Of a stretch of 64,000 nt of DNA, positions 28,811 through 35,048 are shown piece by piece. The notes below the pieces were generated by a model that was not told the DNA's origin, ran no database searches, and saw only the letters and a program-made list of their open reading frames with translations. Source of the stretch: Pedobacter lusitanus (GTDB lineage Bacteria; Bacteroidota; Bacteroidia; Sphingobacteriales; Sphingobacteriaceae); assembly GCF_040026395.1 (NCBI RefSeq), contig NZ_CP157278.1, forward strand, positions 3,844,001 to 3,908,000, read 5' to 3'. The first letter of the stretch is position 1, and each line of letters begins with the position of its first letter. The position numbers and the translations under genes were made by a program.

Positions 28811-28969
28811 CTATTTGTTCTTGGGTTCGATATTGGAAAAGTCGACACCACATTTGCAATTAGATGCGCATCCGCCACTTTTTGGGGACACGGCACGGTA
28901 AATGATGCGGCCAATATAGAAAAGGGCAGCAACAAATAAAAGTCCAACTAAAATAGTCTGAATATCCAT
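28811..28969 (-). CDS. Small Cys-rich membrane protein (FeoB-associated type)
   Basis: A 52-residue frame: MDIQTILVGLLF at the start gives one membrane helix (about residues 5-23), followed by a basic stretch and a Cys motif C34-ASN-C38-K-C40. This layout is that of the FeoB-associated Cys-rich membrane proteins. No feoAB genes are near, so an iron role is inferred from the motif alone. It ends 17 bases before the Crp/Fnr start and starts 38 bases after the end of the amide-ligase cluster, on the same strand. Confidence 0.75.
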   Translation of the reverse strand: MDIQTILVGLLFVAALFYIGRIIYRAVSPKSGGCASNCKCGVDFSNIEPKNK

Positions 28970-29007: not shown

Positions 29008-30213
29008 TTAATTGTCAATTTCTCTTGCCATCAGTCCAACGGTGCCTCCTACCCAGTCAAAATCAGCATTATAGCGAACACCTATCATCTTTCCCCTGCT
29101 TAACCTGGCCAGGTTAATGCAGAGCTGAGGCTCTTCGCCATCCGGCCAGATATATAAAAGTCTGATCTCTGTCTTTACATATCCGTCAGGGGATTTAACA
29201 ACAGGTTCATAATCTACTTTTCGTTGTAATATCCAGTTCTCAGGATCGGTTATGTTTGCAATATCGGCTTGGGTTACATCTATAATAACACCCATTCCGG
29301 CAAATGAAAATAAGGGTTTAAGGACGTAATTTTCCAGGTCAGCAGGAATAGTTTCCAGCGCATTCAAAAACTGTGTTTCCGGTACAAATTCATTCTTTAA
29401 AAAAGGCATGGTGAATTTACTGATCCGGTAAAACCAGTTGGGATGGGTAATCCATTCTACATCTAAAGGTTCGCGGGGGTCAAAGCTTGTTTTAAACAGT
29501 TCCTGCTGTGTACTGACCTCGTCAAAAATCAGCCGGTTATAAATTCTTCTCAAACGTACTTTTTCGTCCTGTTCCTGATAAAAGAGCTGGCCATTTTCAC
29601 TAAAAATATCAGTTAAGCTTAGTATTTTAATCCCCAGATGTTTTGCTGTTACAAAAAAGTCAATAGCAGTTTTCTGGTTCGGAGCATCTATATCCATTAA
29701 GGCTACTTCCTGTGGAGCAAATGGCCCAAGGATTACTTTTTTTAATAAGCTGATATAGGTCTGCTGATCCATGCCATGAAAAAACGGGCTGAAATCAGCG
29801 AGCTTATTCAGTTCAAATGCTTCTTTATAGGTGTCAGCGAGGTGTAACTGAAAAGCAAACAAGGACGGGAATCCCTGCATTTCTATCAATCTTGGAACCA
29901 GTCTGCCTTGCTCATCTTTACAAATGCCAAAGTCGAAAGCTAAAAAATGGGGGTGATCATTTTCATTTGGGACAATCCAGTCTTTAGGGATTGCACTGGC
30001 TGTAAGTTCTTTGAAACCGGGCTGTTTGATTAATCTGATGATCTCTTCACCTGCTGCGATCAGCTGGTTTTTCAGGTCTTCGGGAATAAATACGGGAGTT
30101 TCAGCAAACCTGATCGGTACCGGAGGATAGTCTTTTTCCAGCAGATGTAAAAAATTTGCATACTTCTCTCTGGTGAAATTCCGGTTAAAATATTCTCTGT
30201 AGGTATGGACCAT
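29008..30213 (-). CDS. ATP-grasp-like protein, last gene of the amide-ligase cluster
   Basis: A 401-residue soluble protein that I do not match to a named enzyme. The C-terminal half looks like an ATP-grasp fold: YVLKP (residues 296-300) with a glycine-containing loop SFAGMG, WILQRKVDYEP (327-337) as the nucleotide-binding strand, KTEIRLLYIW (347-356), and NLARLSRGKMIGVRYN (367-382). The N-terminal PRLIEMQGFPSLFAFQ (108-122) resembles the acidic strand of glutathionylspermidine-synthase-type ligases. If active it would form an amide bond using ATP. One base separates it from the amidotransferase gene, so it belongs to that operon. Confidence 0.72.
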   Translation of the reverse strand: MVHTYREYFNRNFTREKYANFLHLLEKDYPPVPIRFAETPVFIPEDLKNQLIAAGEEIIRLIKQPGFKELTASAIPKDWIVPNENDHPHFLAFDFGICKDEQGRLVPRLIEMQGFPSLFAFQLHLADTYKEAFELNKLADFSPFFHGMDQQTYISLLKKVILGPFAPQEVALMDIDAPNQKTAIDFFVTAKHLGIKILSLTDIFSENGQLFYQEQDEKVRLRRIYNRLIFDEVSTQQELFKTSFDPREPLDVEWITHPNWFYRISKFTMPFLKNEFVPETQFLNALETIPADLENYVLKPLFSFAGMGVIIDVTQADIANITDPENWILQRKVDYEPVVKSPDGYVKTEIRLLYIWPDGEEPQLCINLARLSRGKMIGVRYNADFDWVGGTVGLMAREIDN

Positions 30214-30214
30214 A

Positions 30215-31045
30215 TCAGGCTTCTTTAAGCGCTTGAATAGCTTCAGTTAAAAAATTAGGTAAGATAGATTTTTGAGTCAGGAGAATTCTGTCTGGGTTAT
30301 CAATACTGTCCAGCATGTCCAGGTATTTGTCTTCTCCATGGGCGGCGATAATGCTCTTTTTCTTCTCTTCTTCCAGAAGATATAGCCTCATGCCATCCGG
30401 ATCCGCTTCAGGATGAAATTGTGTGCCGACAAACTCTTTAGAGAAACGAATAGACATGATACAGCGTTCCAGGTCAATATACGGACGTTCTTTTTCCAGT
30501 GCTAAAATTTCTGCACCGGTTTCATTAAAAGTTTCATCCTCAGCATCTACCACCTGCCAGTCCCTGCTGTCAATGGCATAAAAGGGATTAGTCAGGCCGG
30601 CATATATGATGTCATTTTCACCCTCCTGCGTTAAGGTAACAGGGAAAATGCCGAAAGCAGTTGATTTTCTTCTGGTAACCATACCCAGGCCATATTTACG
30701 GCATGCCATCTGGAAAGAGTGACAGATTAAGAAAATATACTTTTTATCCGGATGAGTTTTGTTATAATCTTCGATCTGGTCGAGCAGGGCAAAAAATGAG
30801 TTCTCCCAGGCCTGGCCTTCACCATCATAGGGGCTGCCAGGGCCGCCACTCGAAATATAGATGTCATATTCAATTCCCGGTATTTCATCTTTTACCCTTA
30901 AATCGAATACTTCGCAGGATAAATCCAGTGAATGCTCTTTCTTATACGTTGCTACAATATCGAGAATACCTCTTAGTCCCTGGTTAGGAACTCCTTTATT
31001 CATGTCTATAACGGCAACTTTAATTTCTTTTTTTTCTCCTGTCAT
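30215..31045 (-). CDS. Class I glutamine amidotransferase-like protein
   Basis: A 276-residue protein with the class I (triad) glutaminase fold. The nucleophile elbow is LICHSFQMACR with Cys108, and the second motif is GTQFHPEADPDG with His211 and Glu213. A GGPGSPYDGEG loop (67-77) matches the oxyanion region. No synthetase domain is fused, so it either feeds ammonia to a separate ligase or cleaves gamma-glutamyl amides. It overlaps the carboxylate-amine ligase gene by four bases, evidence for a joint function. Confidence 0.88.
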   Translation of the reverse strand: MTGEKKEIKVAVIDMNKGVPNQGLRGILDIVATYKKEHSLDLSCEVFDLRVKDEIPGIEYDIYISSGGPGSPYDGEGQAWENSFFALLDQIEDYNKTHPDKKYIFLICHSFQMACRKYGLGMVTRRKSTAFGIFPVTLTQEGENDIIYAGLTNPFYAIDSRDWQVVDAEDETFNETGAEILALEKERPYIDLERCIMSIRFSKEFVGTQFHPEADPDGMRLYLLEEEKKKSIIAAHGEDKYLDMLDSIDNPDRILLTQKSILPNFLTEAIQALKEA

Positions 31046-32148
31046 GCGTGTGCTCCTATTAAGGTTTGCGATGTAATGTAGTCCACAACAGATTCAAAGC
31101 TTCCTGTCTGTGAGTAAATTGCCAGCTGTCTGTCTGCGCCGGTACCATTTTCCAGGATCTTGTGTATATAGTTCAGATCTTCTCTGCAGCCCAGTTCATC
31201 GACTACGTCATCTACAAAATCCAATAATTCTAATACAAGATTACGGCAGTTGATTTCCATTTCTTTACCAAAATCAATCAGATTTCCATCAATACCATAA
31301 CGGGCAGCACGCCACTTGTTTTCGTTAATCAAGGCTCTGGAATAATTGATGAAACTCATGTTTTGCAGACGTAGTTTGTACAGTTTTGCGCAAAGAGACT
31401 GGAAAAGGGCAACAAAAGCCATCGTTTCATCAATCAGCATCGGGCAGTCGCAGATTCTGAATTCTATAGTTTCAAAAAACGGATGTACACGAATATCCCA
31501 CCAGATTTTTTTTGCATTATCGATACTGTTGGTTTTGATCAGTAACTTGACATAGTTATCATAGTCTTCAATGCTGTTAAAAACATCCGGGATACCAGTT
31601 CTTGGAAACTTATCAAAGATTTTGGTCCGGTAAGATTTATAACCTGTATTTCTTCCTTCCCAAAAGGGAGAGTTGGTTGATAAGGCAAAAACGTGGGGTA
31701 AAAAATAACGGACCTGATTGGCAATATGAATTGCGAGTTCTCTGGATTGAAAGCCCACATGCACATGCAGTCCGAAAATCAGGTTGGAACGTGCTGCTTC
31801 CTGTAGTTCATTGACAATTTCACTGTATCTGGGATGTTCTGTAATCAGCTGTTTTTCCCAATGCGAGAAAGGATGTGTTCCGGACGCTCCGATACGTAAA
31901 CCCTGTTCTCCGGCCAGTACTGAAACTGTATGACGAAGCTGGGAGATTTCCAGTCTTGCCTGTTCTGTGTTTTTACAGATACCGGTACCTACTTCCACCA
32001 CGGCCTGATGCATCTCGGCTTTTACCTGATCTTTATGGATCTTTTGTGCAGCCTCTACTATTTTCTGGTCATGTGAGGTTAATTCACGGGTGACCGGGTC
32101 AATGACCATATACTCTTCTTCTACACCAAGCGTAAATTCATTCATCAT
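31042..32148 (-). CDS. Carboxylate-amine ligase, YbdK/GCS2 family
   Basis: A 368-residue enzyme of the glutamate-cysteine ligase 2 family. Family motifs are GVEEEYMVID (8-17), GLHVHVGF (126-133), SPFWEGRNTGYKSYRTKIF (160-178) and WWDIRVHPFFETIEFRICD (216-234). Members join an amino-acid carboxylate to an amine using ATP; YbdK has weak glutamate-cysteine ligase activity, but the physiological substrates of most are unknown. The start at 32148 is supported by AAGGAGGT six bases upstream. It is the central enzyme of the cluster. Confidence 0.93.
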   Translation of the reverse strand: MMNEFTLGVEEEYMVIDPVTRELTSHDQKIVEAAQKIHKDQVKAEMHQAVVEVGTGICKNTEQARLEISQLRHTVSVLAGEQGLRIGASGTHPFSHWEKQLITEHPRYSEIVNELQEAARSNLIFGLHVHVGFQSRELAIHIANQVRYFLPHVFALSTNSPFWEGRNTGYKSYRTKIFDKFPRTGIPDVFNSIEDYDNYVKLLIKTNSIDNAKKIWWDIRVHPFFETIEFRICDCPMLIDETMAFVALFQSLCAKLYKLRLQNMSFINYSRALINENKWRAARYGIDGNLIDFGKEMEINCRNLVLELLDFVDDVVDELGCREDLNYIHKILENGTGADRQLAIYSQTGSFESVVDYITSQTLIGAHA

Positions 32149-32154
32149 CTTGAA

Positions 32155-32162
32155 ACCTCCTT
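32155..32162 (-). promoter_or_regulatory. Strong Shine-Dalgarno site of the GCS2-family gene
   Basis: Read on the minus strand this is AAGGAGGT, six bases before the ATG at 32146-32148. Such full sites are rare in Bacteroidota and suggest raised translation of the ligase relative to its neighbours. Confidence 0.7.
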
Positions 32163-32169
32163 ATCGAAT

Positions 32170-33255
32170 TTATTTTTTCTTTGCTGCTGCTTTACCTGTC
32201 GCTGCAGGTTTTGTTTTTTGAGCAGATGCCGGACTTTTTGTTGCAGATTTAGTTGCAGGTGGAGTTTTGACAGATGCTGTTTTTGCCGGCGTACTTTTAG
32301 CCGTCAGTGATTTTCCGGCAATGGCCGATTTAATATATTCTCCCCAGGTCAGGTTATCCTGTCCGTCGATCTGTGCTTTAGCCCTTTCAATGGCATATTT
32401 GGCTGAGGTTTCTACCACCCAGTCAAAGTTTTCCTGTCCTACACTGGCTATATCAGCATCAGGGGCGGGATTACAAAAATCAATTGCATAAGGAATGCCA
32501 TCCCGTACGGCAAATTCTACAGTATTAAAATCATAACCCAGATACTGATTGAGTTTGATAACGTAGTCATGAATTGTTTTGATTAGTTTTTCACTTGAAG
32601 GTTTATGATCTACTGCATATCTTAAATGAGCAGGATTACGTGGCTCATATTGCATAATACGTACATATTTTCCGCCAATACAATAACACCTGAAATATTC
32701 ATCAAATTCAATTTCTTCCTGCAGCATCATCACGTATTGATGTGTCTGGCTATGTTTATCGAAAAACTCTTCTTTGTTGTTAAGCTTATAAACTTCTTTC
32801 CATCCGCCTCCATCAAAGGGTTTCATGTATGCAGGGAATCCGGTATAGCTGAAAATGTTGTCCCAGTCAAAAGGAAAAGCCAGATTGCTGAAAGAATTTT
32901 CTGTAGTGTCGTCTGGCCTGGCATGCGAAGGGATCAACGCTGTTTTGGGAACAGGTATTCCCAGCTTAACAGCCAGTGCGTTGTTGAAAAATTTCTCATC
33001 AGCACTCCACCAGAAAGGGTTATTGATAACTGCTGTACCTGTAATTGCAGCATTTTTTAAGGATGCTCTGTAAAAAGGGACATCCTGGGAAATACGATCA
33101 ATAATTACAGCATAGTCCAAAGGTTCTGCCTGGAATATTTTATCAATATTCACAAATTCTGCCTTGAAGTCATTTCCCCCTAATTCATTTACACGCTTTA
33201 CGAAGGCCTCAGGAAATGATCGTTCCTGTCCGAATAAAATACCTATTTTCTTCAT
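32170..33255 (-). CDS. RimK-like ATP-grasp ligase with Lys/Ala/Pro-rich tail
   Basis: A 361-residue protein. Residues 1-312 form an ATP-grasp ligase: KKIGILFGQE at the start, AYMKPFDGGGWKEVY (142-156) as the ATP-binding loop, MLQEEIEFDEYFRCYCIGG (177-195), and VEFAVRDGIPYAIDFCNPAPDAD (246-268) with metal-ligand Asp/Asn. From residue 313 to the end the sequence is almost only Lys, Ala, Ser, Thr and Pro, like histone H1 tails, with no hydrophobic residues to fold. Such a tail might bind nucleic acid or polyanions, or be itself modified. It lies 21 bases before the GCS2 gene, in the same operon. Confidence 0.9.
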   Translation of the reverse strand: MKKIGILFGQERSFPEAFVKRVNELGGNDFKAEFVNIDKIFQAEPLDYAVIIDRISQDVPFYRASLKNAAITGTAVINNPFWWSADEKFFNNALAVKLGIPVPKTALIPSHARPDDTTENSFSNLAFPFDWDNIFSYTGFPAYMKPFDGGGWKEVYKLNNKEEFFDKHSQTHQYVMMLQEEIEFDEYFRCYCIGGKYVRIMQYEPRNPAHLRYAVDHKPSSEKLIKTIHDYVIKLNQYLGYDFNTVEFAVRDGIPYAIDFCNPAPDADIASVGQENFDWVVETSAKYAIERAKAQIDGQDNLTWGEYIKSAIAGKSLTAKSTPAKTASVKTPPATKSATKSPASAQKTKPAATGKAAAKKK

Positions 33256-33295
33256 AGAATTTTTTAATTAGGTGATGAAGCTTATATGATCTTGT

Positions 33296-34000
33296 TTATA
33301 TTTTTGATAAGTATTCCGGAAACTGCTGTAACCAGACGGGCCAGTCATGGTCAGCATCAGGTCTGATATCCAGCCAGTGATTTATGTTTTTTTGATGAAG
33401 AATACCTGATAAACGTTCGTTAAATGGTTTACATATATCCCTGTCACCGGTGCCCAGTATAATTCCAATATTCCAGAGATCCGGATCCTGGTCACCTGGC
33501 AGGAAATCAACAGGATTATTATAATAAATATCACTGTCATAGAAACCATCAACCTGTGAACTGATATCAAAAGTTCCGCTCATGCTAAACAGATGGCTGA
33601 CTAATGAAGGATGTTTGAATGCGAAATTTGCAGCGTGATAACCTCCAAAACTGCAGCCTGCCGTAATTACTTTTTGGTACCCGGTTTCACAGACAGCAAG
33701 AGGAAAAAGCTCCTGAGCAAGCATTTTATCATACCAGGTATGATTTTGCGCCCGGTCTGACGGGGAAATAGATTTGTTATACCAGCTCAGCGCATCGACA
33801 CTGTCCGGACAATATATTTTGACTTTGCCTTCCTCAATCAGATGTTGTACCGAAGCAATCAGACCAAAGTCTTTTGTTTCATAATAACGCCCCTTACTGG
33901 TTGGGAAAAGAAAAACAGGATGTCCGCTATGTCCGTAAATCAGAAATTCTATGTCGCCGCTTAAATTAGGACTGTACCATTTTTTATATTCTTCTTTCAC
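33296..34000 (-). CDS. Esterase, alpha/beta hydrolase fold
   Basis: An esterase of the type-D family. The nucleophile elbow is AGCSFGGYHA, with Asp in GTGDRDICK and His in ADHDWPVW as likely triad members. I chose GTG at 33998-34000 (product starting KEEYKKWYSPNL after the initiator, 234 residues) because AGAGGGA precedes it closely and the family usually starts there; ATG at 34045 would give 249 residues. It heads the amide-ligase operon, 40 bases before the RimK-like gene. It may hydrolyse or transfer the product of the ligases. Confidence 0.85.
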   Translation of the reverse strand: MKEEYKKWYSPNLSGDIEFLIYGHSGHPVFLFPTSKGRYYETKDFGLIASVQHLIEEGKVKIYCPDSVDALSWYNKSISPSDRAQNHTWYDKMLAQELFPLAVCETGYQKVITAGCSFGGYHAANFAFKHPSLVSHLFSMSGTFDISSQVDGFYDSDIYYNNPVDFLPGDQDPDLWNIGIILGTGDRDICKPFNERLSGILHQKNINHWLDIRPDADHDWPVWLQQFPEYLSKI

Positions 34001-34031
34001 AGATTCCCTCTTTTGATGTATTGAATATAGA

Positions 34032-34061
34032 CAAAACCCGTTCAAACCCCAAAAGGTTTTG
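34032..34061. promoter_or_regulatory. Operator-like inverted repeat between the two esterase genes
   Basis: CAAAACC at 34032-34038 is the exact reverse complement of GGTTTTG at 34055-34061, a 7-base dyad with a 16-base gap. It lies in the divergent control region of the amide-ligase cluster and could be a regulator site, but short dyads arise by chance. Confidence 0.3.
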
Positions 34062-34185
34062 CCGATTTATTCTTATTAAACAATAATTAGTTATTCTGTT
34101 TAGATATTTGTCTGAAAGCATCAACCGAATACGGTTAAATCCTGCTTACTGTTAAAAATATAGATACTTTATTACAGAGATTGTT

Positions 34186-34193
34186 AAATTTGC
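34186..34193 (+). promoter_or_regulatory. Possible -7 box of the divergent esterase
   Basis: TAAATTTG matches TAnnTTTG and lies 33 bases before the ATG at 34227. A clear -33 box is not visible. Confidence 0.4.
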
Positions 34194-34226
34194 ATCGAAT
34201 TTGTGAGAAAGGGAATTCGTTGAATT

Positions 34227-35048
34227 ATGTATAATACTGTGTCAGTCCTTGGGGCAAACCCCGTAATCCGTCAGTTGGAATCCGTTCATTTACAGCGGGT
34301 AGTGGAAATAGAGATATTTTATCCTTCCGGCTTACTTGGAAATGAAAAACTAAATTTATTGCTGTTGAACGACGGTCAGGATGCTGATGGATTAGATTTG
34401 AAGGAGACGCTGAATAATTTATACGAAGATCAGAAAATTGAGCCTGTAGTTGTGGTTGCCATTAAAGCGTCTGCAGACCGGCTTCAGGAATACGGAGTTG
34501 CAGGAGTTCCTGACTTTGCAGGAAGAGGAGGAAAGGCTGCGGATTATACCAGATTCATCACTTCAGAATTAATGCCTTTTATAGAAAAAGAAGCCGGAAT
34601 GCCTTTTCTTGGTAAACGTGCCTTTGCCGGATGTTCACTTGGTGGACTTACAGCATTTGATATTGTCTGGAAGAATGATGGTTTTTTTGATATTGCCGGT
34701 GTCTTTTCAGGTTCTTTCTGGTGGAGGAAAAAAGATCTGAAAGATGGTTATACAGATAATGACCGGATTATGCATGAGGTTATCAGGGAAACTGAAAACC
34801 AGCCCTCAGTTAAGTTCTGGCTGATGACGGGTACAGAAGATGAAACTGCTGACCGCAACCGTAATTTCATCATTGACTCCATTGATGATACGATTGATAT
34901 TATCAAGGAACTAACCAAAAAGGGTTATAAAAGACAGGATGACATTTTTTATTATGAAATGGTGGGAGGTAAGCATAATGTAGCTACCTGGGCTAAAGCT
35001 ATTCCATCATTTTTATGCTGGGCTTTTGCCAGAAAAACGTTTTTGTAA
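34227..35048 (+). CDS. Putative esterase, alpha/beta hydrolase fold
   Basis: A 273-residue cytoplasmic hydrolase of the esterase-D type. The nucleophile elbow is AGCSLGGLTAF; acidic and His members are probably in TGTEDETADRN and GGKHNVATW. It lacks a signal peptide. It is transcribed away from the amide-ligase operon with a shared 226-base control region, and together with the first esterase brackets the cluster, as if two hydrolases act on ester or thioester intermediates. Substrate unknown. Confidence 0.88.
   Translation: MYNTVSVLGANPVIRQLESVHLQRVVEIEIFYPSGLLGNEKLNLLLLNDGQDADGLDLKETLNNLYEDQKIEPVVVVAIKASADRLQEYGVAGVPDFAGRGGKAADYTRFITSELMPFIEKEAGMPFLGKRAFAGCSLGGLTAFDIVWKNDGFFDIAGVFSGSFWWRKKDLKDGYTDNDRIMHEVIRETENQPSVKFWLMTGTEDETADRNRNFIIDSIDDTIDIIKELTKKGYKRQDDIFYYEMVGGKHNVATWAKAIPSFLCWAFARKTFL

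Follow-up and report, generated by a model that had tools for sequence, protein, structure and literature searches.

Do the closely packed genes for three ATP-dependent ligases, a glutamine amidotransferase-like protein and two esterases in Pedobacter lusitanus serve a common product, and of what kind might that product be? The window that we analyzed, 64,000 nucleotides of contig NZ_CP157278.1, carries these genes at positions 29008-35048, and all six ORFs are intact. The original prediction had listed five colinear genes and a divergent sixth, and this gene set held up in our analysis. The features, with their positions in the window, are as follows.

28811..28969, minus strand: FeoB_associated Cys-rich membrane protein, 52 aa (ORF listing and PF12669); a local addition, not core
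29008..30213, minus strand: cpAG, circularly permuted ATP-grasp ligase of the YgiC/glutathione synthetase fold, 401 aa
30215..31045, minus strand: GATase, class-I glutamine amidotransferase-like protein, 276 aa (PF00117, triad)
31042..32148, minus strand: GCS2, YbdK/GCS2-family carboxylate-amine ligase of the PRK13515 type, 368 aa (PF04107, PRK13515, PDB matches)
32170..33255, minus strand: RimK-type ATP-grasp ligase, 361 aa
33296..34045, minus strand: EstA, alpha/beta-hydrolase (ORF listing and PF00756)
34001..34226, no strand: divergent intergenic region, presumed promoter region
34227..35048, plus strand: EstB, divergent PF00756 esterase, 273 aa

The spacing had been described as 4-base or near-zero, which is accurate for GCS2-GATase (-4, an overlap) and GATase-cpAG (1 bp) but not for EstA-RimK (40 bp) and RimK-GCS2 (21 bp). 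Promoters in the cluster region are presumed, and the evidence for them is not strong: a single TAAATTTG at 34185 on the plus strand of 34001..34226, which we take to be a -7-like site on the basis of the Bacteroidota -7 consensus, has no spaced -33 partner, the sigma-70 scan found 24 sites against a shuffle mean of 20.6 and thus did not rise above the shuffles, and terminators likewise showed no excess over shuffles.

Catalytic residues were intact wherever they were checked in the cluster enzymes, with family assignments that differ in firmness. GCS2 matches PF04107 (203.9 bits), exceeds the curated PRK13515 cut-off (537.6 versus 371 bits), which places it in the YbdK/PRK13515 family, and aligns with PDB entries 1tt4 (E 3.8e-49) and 1r8g, YbdK (E 2.3e-46); it is the single GCS2 match in its own genome (one contig, 6,049,699 bases). 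It shares 92% identity with both counterparts at two further loci of the genus, compared with 91 and 94% for the GTPase BipA, 62-70% for flanking Crp, YceI and Pirin, and 62% for GATase in the same comparison. Since GCS2 evolves as slowly as BipA within the genus, a core rather than strain-specific role is suggested for at least this enzyme. The RimK-type ligase retains K145, GGG149-151, E180, E247, D259 and N262 but falls below the TIGR00768 RimK-family cut-off (29.5 versus 143.4 bits) and is therefore not a canonical RimK S6 ligase; the reading that it works like RimK rests on fold. Its alignment retrieved general ATP-grasp matches among solved structures, all of them weak, and single-sequence searches with the RimK-like protein, cpAG and GATase against the sequences of solved structures returned nothing useful. 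PF08443 has a single RimK match in the own genome (C1:3376124-3376435, L180), inside a 904-aa frame that presumably resembles cyanophycin synthetase, and at another locus (L173, 8649-10184) an aromatic amino acid lyase (PF00221) directly follows the RimK-type gene. Spread by plasmids was considered and rejected, as the RimK protein had no match among 72,556 plasmid records.

The protein originally called a second ATP-grasp-like protein is indeed an ATP-grasp enzyme, and its assignment can be sharpened: over its whole length cpAG has the fold of the circularly permuted YgiC/glutathione synthetase/glutathionylspermidine synthetase (GspS) enzymes, with D94, E111, Q113, K299, G306, G308, E349, R351 and R370 as its residues. 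Identity in the alignments with YgiC, YjfC and GspSA is low (12-15%), YgiC is matched weakly at the profile level (E 0.0084), no family in Pfam or NCBIfam was found at E 0.1, and the nearest named homologue is from Pedobacter cryoconitis (87% identity). The fold alone does not assign a substrate. In one locus (L053, 8136-10739), a single 867-aa open frame joins cpAG to the end of a transporter-like membrane protein, either as a genuine fusion or as an artefact of the frame. As predicted, the ligases are suited to NRPS-independent amide formation, with three present and all of them unrelated to NRPSs. GATase is a class-I glutamine amidotransferase by PF00117 (40.9 bits, cut-off 22.8), and its predicted Cys108-His211-Glu213 triad, invariant in 19 of 19 aligned sequences, occurs without a fused synthase domain. 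EstA, whose probable start is a GTG at 34000 (giving 234 aa), matches PF00756 with 27.0 bits, and EstB does so with 88.5 bits and a nucleophile motif GCSLGG (Ser137). The Ser, Asp and His columns are invariant in 20/20 rows of the esterase alignment (12 EstA-type, 8 EstB-type), and the EstA triad is taken by us, from known motifs, to be Ser117-Asp188-His218 in the 234-aa numbering. In the Cyclobacteriaceae-type loci L112, L115, L116, L119, L121 and L124, an alpha/beta-hydrolase gene lies upstream of RimK; domain scans covered L116 and L124.

Whether these genes belong together was addressed with 148 evenly drawn Bacteroidota genomes, 49 of which carry cpAG; the 48 besides the window's own were inspected around cpAG. 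As a control, 60 ORFs of the window were compared (tblastn, 1e-10) with the 45 cpAG loci outside its own family. RimK recurred in 25 of these loci, GCS2 in 24, GATase in 17, EstA in 17 and EstB in 6; the best ORF outside the cluster recurred in 2/45 and 48 ORFs in none, so that only the six cluster genes (the bait cpAG and the five others) exceeded 2/45. Among the flanking genes, Crp, YceI, Pirin, SDR and BipA travel with the cluster at the loci L032 and L033 of the same genus, and the Crp/YceI/Pirin flank is present in 18/79 loci; outside the own family, however, these five flanking genes appear in at most 1/45 loci, and local synteny alone was rejected as an explanation. The persistence of clustering in distant Bacteroidota agrees with the original prediction, which had named separation of the genes in related genomes as evidence against a joint pathway.

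The genes were also co-inherited. Across the 148 genomes, the RimK alignment matched in 60, the GATase alignment in 40 and PF04107 in 85, and GCS2 was counted as strong at 190 bits or more (52 genomes, leaving out 33 weaker ones). cpAG and RimK co-occurred in 48 genomes, cpAG and strong GCS2 in 47, RimK and GCS2 in 50, cpAG and GATase in 30, and GATase and GCS2 in 32, and RimK was present in 40/40 GATase genomes. Fisher values ranged from 1e-10 to 1e-30, with related genomes treated as independent. Pairs lay within 10 kb in 30/48 genomes for cpAG-RimK, 29/47 for cpAG-GCS2, 33/50 for RimK-GCS2, 29/40 for RimK-GATase, 21/30 for cpAG-GATase and 18/32 for GATase-GCS2 (in G066, where cpAG is split across two contigs, the N-terminal piece was used for distances). 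The 60-ORF control and this co-occurrence led us to reject a chance neighbourhood. Across Bacteroidota, the genes for three different kinds of ligase, for the cysteine amidotransferase and for both serine hydrolases thus cluster and are inherited together. A loose grouping of ligases and hydrolases, each useful on its own and with no common product, would fit the 18/48 genomes in which RimK and cpAG, although both present, lie apart (>10 kb or on separate contigs), as well as the unrelated genes found beside cpAG in several lineages; near-complete co-inheritance despite this dispersal, together with the 60-ORF control, makes such a reading improbable.

When named genomes were scanned with the RimK alignment, the best 80 of at least 581 loci, a set biased toward near relatives, showed the order RimK-GCS2-GATase-cpAG on one strand in 44/80, RimK-GCS2 in 26, nothing but RimK in 4, RimK-GATase-cpAG in 3, RimK-GCS2-GATase in 2 and GATase-cpAG alone in 1 (L084, where RimK was overlooked by ORF picking). 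No reordered gene set was seen among these 80, several of which stop at contig ends. Titles among the matches listed include Pedobacter, Mucilaginibacter, Cyclobacteriaceae, Chitinophagaceae, Saprospiraceae, Pontibacter, Spirosoma and Cryomorpha. Among the same listed matches, the GATase-cpAG gap had a median of 14 bp (<=10 bp in 20/45) and the GCS2-GATase gap a median of 7 bp (<=10 bp in 30/44), compared with a median of 296 bp (n=17) for cpAG-Crp.

The short GCS2-GATase gap also fits a protecting-group or amine-salvage route, in which GCS2 would add gamma-Glu to an amine and the GATase-like cysteine hydrolase would remove it once other enzymes have acted, as gamma-Glu is installed and then removed by BtrJ/BtrG and PuuA/PuuD; the intact triad free of a fused synthase domain points the same way. 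Such a route leads one to expect joint loss of the two genes, but strong GCS2 occurs without GATase in 20 genomes and the reverse in 8, which leaves this alternative rather unlikely. GATase is missing from 20/60 RimK genomes, and strong GCS2 is missing from G037 and G064, which retain RimK, GATase and cpAG. Because GCS2 and GATase are each missing where other genes remain, neither is obligatory and there is no fixed six-enzyme set; the predicted joint pathway is partly supported, by the clustering, the ligases and the triad, but not as a fixed set of six. In one lineage (L067, L069, L071, L072 and L075-L079), cpAG lies by itself next to members of a single gene family, of which those in L067 and L075 are Amidohydro_3 proteins, and RimK and GCS2 are located elsewhere in most genomes of this type.

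Three genomes of another lineage lack cpAG. Named RimK homologues of this lineage are of Rhodothermia type with one KSB1 entry, and in the three genomes a CP_ATPgrasp-like protein is encoded between RimK and GATase (L160, 6575-7930; L161, 7642-9057; L165, 8628-10052). An esterase gene follows these three genes in all three loci, another precedes RimK in L160 and L165, and an ATP-grasp_4 protein lies behind the esterase in L161. The CP_ATPgrasp-like protein of L161 scores above the PF14403 cut-off (37.3 versus 32) and also matches 3n6x (E 9.9e-10), that of L160 stays below the same cut-off (23.7), and the own genome has no PF14403 match; the GATase relative in L160 is likewise below the PF00117 cut-off (21.2 bits). 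Since GCS2 is found elsewhere in G022, G104, G112 and G123 (strong GCS2 is absent from G013), the CP_ATPgrasp-like protein more plausibly stands in for cpAG than for GCS2. Both here and in the cpAG-bearing clusters, the window's own included, the usual neighbour of the GATase gene is one for a circularly permuted ATP-grasp enzyme, and we therefore tie the role of GATase to that enzyme.

Taken together, we lean toward reading the locus as an operon-like module for the stepwise, ATP-dependent synthesis of a small peptide amide independently of ribosomes and NRPSs. The bond made by GCS2 would be of gamma-glutamyl type or another carboxylate-amine linkage, the RimK-type ligase would add an amino acid via an acyl phosphate, and cpAG would join the C-terminal carboxylate of the peptide to an amine, which may be an amino acid, a polyamine or ammonia. 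GATase may either pass ammonia to cpAG or cut the amide that cpAG forms, much as E. coli GspSA cleaves its own amide product with its amidase half, and EstA and EstB could hydrolyze an ester or amide of an intermediate or of the product. The overall logic would resemble the route from glutathione to glutathionylspermidine, assembled from other parts. Our confidence is moderate because the losses of GCS2 and GATase are independent, the genes are dispersed in part of the sample, cpAG can stand beside Amidohydro_3 genes and the link to YgiC is weak. A more specific version, for which we see only a small chance, is a phylum-wide gamma-glutamyl peptide-polyamine metabolite made by GCS2 and the RimK-type ligase, closed by cpAG and reopened by the GATase-like amidase; this putative product would be the Bacteroidota counterpart of glutathionylspermidine or trypanothione. 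The deoxyhypusine/homospermidine-synthase-type family PF01916 occurs in 46/48 RimK genomes with cpAG versus 4/12 without it, a contrast confounded by descent, and in 47/49 cpAG genomes versus 72/99 others, a comparison that still includes lineage effects; as a pointer to polyamines, the pattern is at most a weak hint.

A glutathione-like low-molecular-weight thiol was also considered: GCS2 and a GshB-like RimK enzyme would yield a thiol tripeptide, with the PF00756 hydrolases acting in the manner of S-formylglutathione hydrolase. In its favour, GCS2 belongs to a family related to gamma-glutamylcysteine ligase, and PF02955 finds no GshB in the own genome. However, the bacillithiol enzyme BshC is encoded in 147/148 genomes, the own one included, which makes a second main thiol unnecessary, and no feature of the cluster points to cysteine; we regard this reading as very improbable.

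Structural comparison places RimK and the macrocyclases PsnB and MdnC near the RimK-type protein, which would fit the modification of a protein or ribosomal peptide, by RimK-like tailing or as a graspetide. A 52-aa Cys-rich membrane protein, missing from the original list, lies 38 bp downstream of cpAG in the window, also follows cpAG in Pedobacter-type loci, and would be the candidate partner. It is nevertheless a member of the known family PF12669 (31.0 bits, cut-off 27), present in 32/149 loci and absent from distant clusters; these loci are of Pedobacter/Mucilaginibacter type where named, apart from one Flavobacteriaceae title (L104) and one title each at Bacteroidetes or family level where so named. 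When small ORFs in the short flanks of 78 loci were clustered at E 1e-4 (12 groups listed), PF12669 was the only annotated family among the conserved ones, and none matched NCBIfam; a divergent precursor could have escaped this clustering. As the operon gaps of the window are also too small to house a precursor, modification of a ribosomal product is an improbable alternative to the small peptide amide.

Stand-alone amide-ligase pathways as such are already known, and Iyer et al. in 2009 reportedly surveyed amidoligases and predicted pathways from conserved neighbourhoods of ATP-grasp enzymes, GCS/GS-type ligases and hydrolases; that survey lay outside the coverage of our literature search, which returned no description of this gene neighbourhood. 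A slow-evolving multi-ligase module that is carried by many environmental Bacteroidota and has no product in the searched literature would form part of core small-molecule metabolism. The class-I GATase and the glutathione-synthetase-fold ligase offer a testable pairing, and the stand-alone amide ligases could possibly be used in biocatalysis.

Relative to the glutathione pathway (gamma-glutamylcysteine ligase and glutathione synthetase), for which the own genome lacks GshB, the cluster adds a RimK-type ligase, GATase and a pair of esterases. It differs from RimK/LysX/ArgX systems in having neither an S6 nor a LysW gene and in a RimK-type enzyme below the family cut-off. The fungal E-64 pathway uses an ANL amide synthetase together with the ATP-grasp enzyme Cp1B and carries an epoxysuccinate warhead; unlike for our cluster, no GCS2, RimK or GATase is described for it (PMC12568646). 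The same article describes YgiC and YjfC as peptide-spermidine ligases of E. coli (PMC12568646). cpAG is set apart from these enzymes and GspSA by its 12-15% identity, the YgiC profile value and the lack of a Pfam match. Its metal-site motif reads E-x-Q, where enzymes of the YgiC/GspSA type have E-x-N, and the cysteine hydrolase encoded beside it is a class-I GATase, in place of the CHAP amidase of GspSA.
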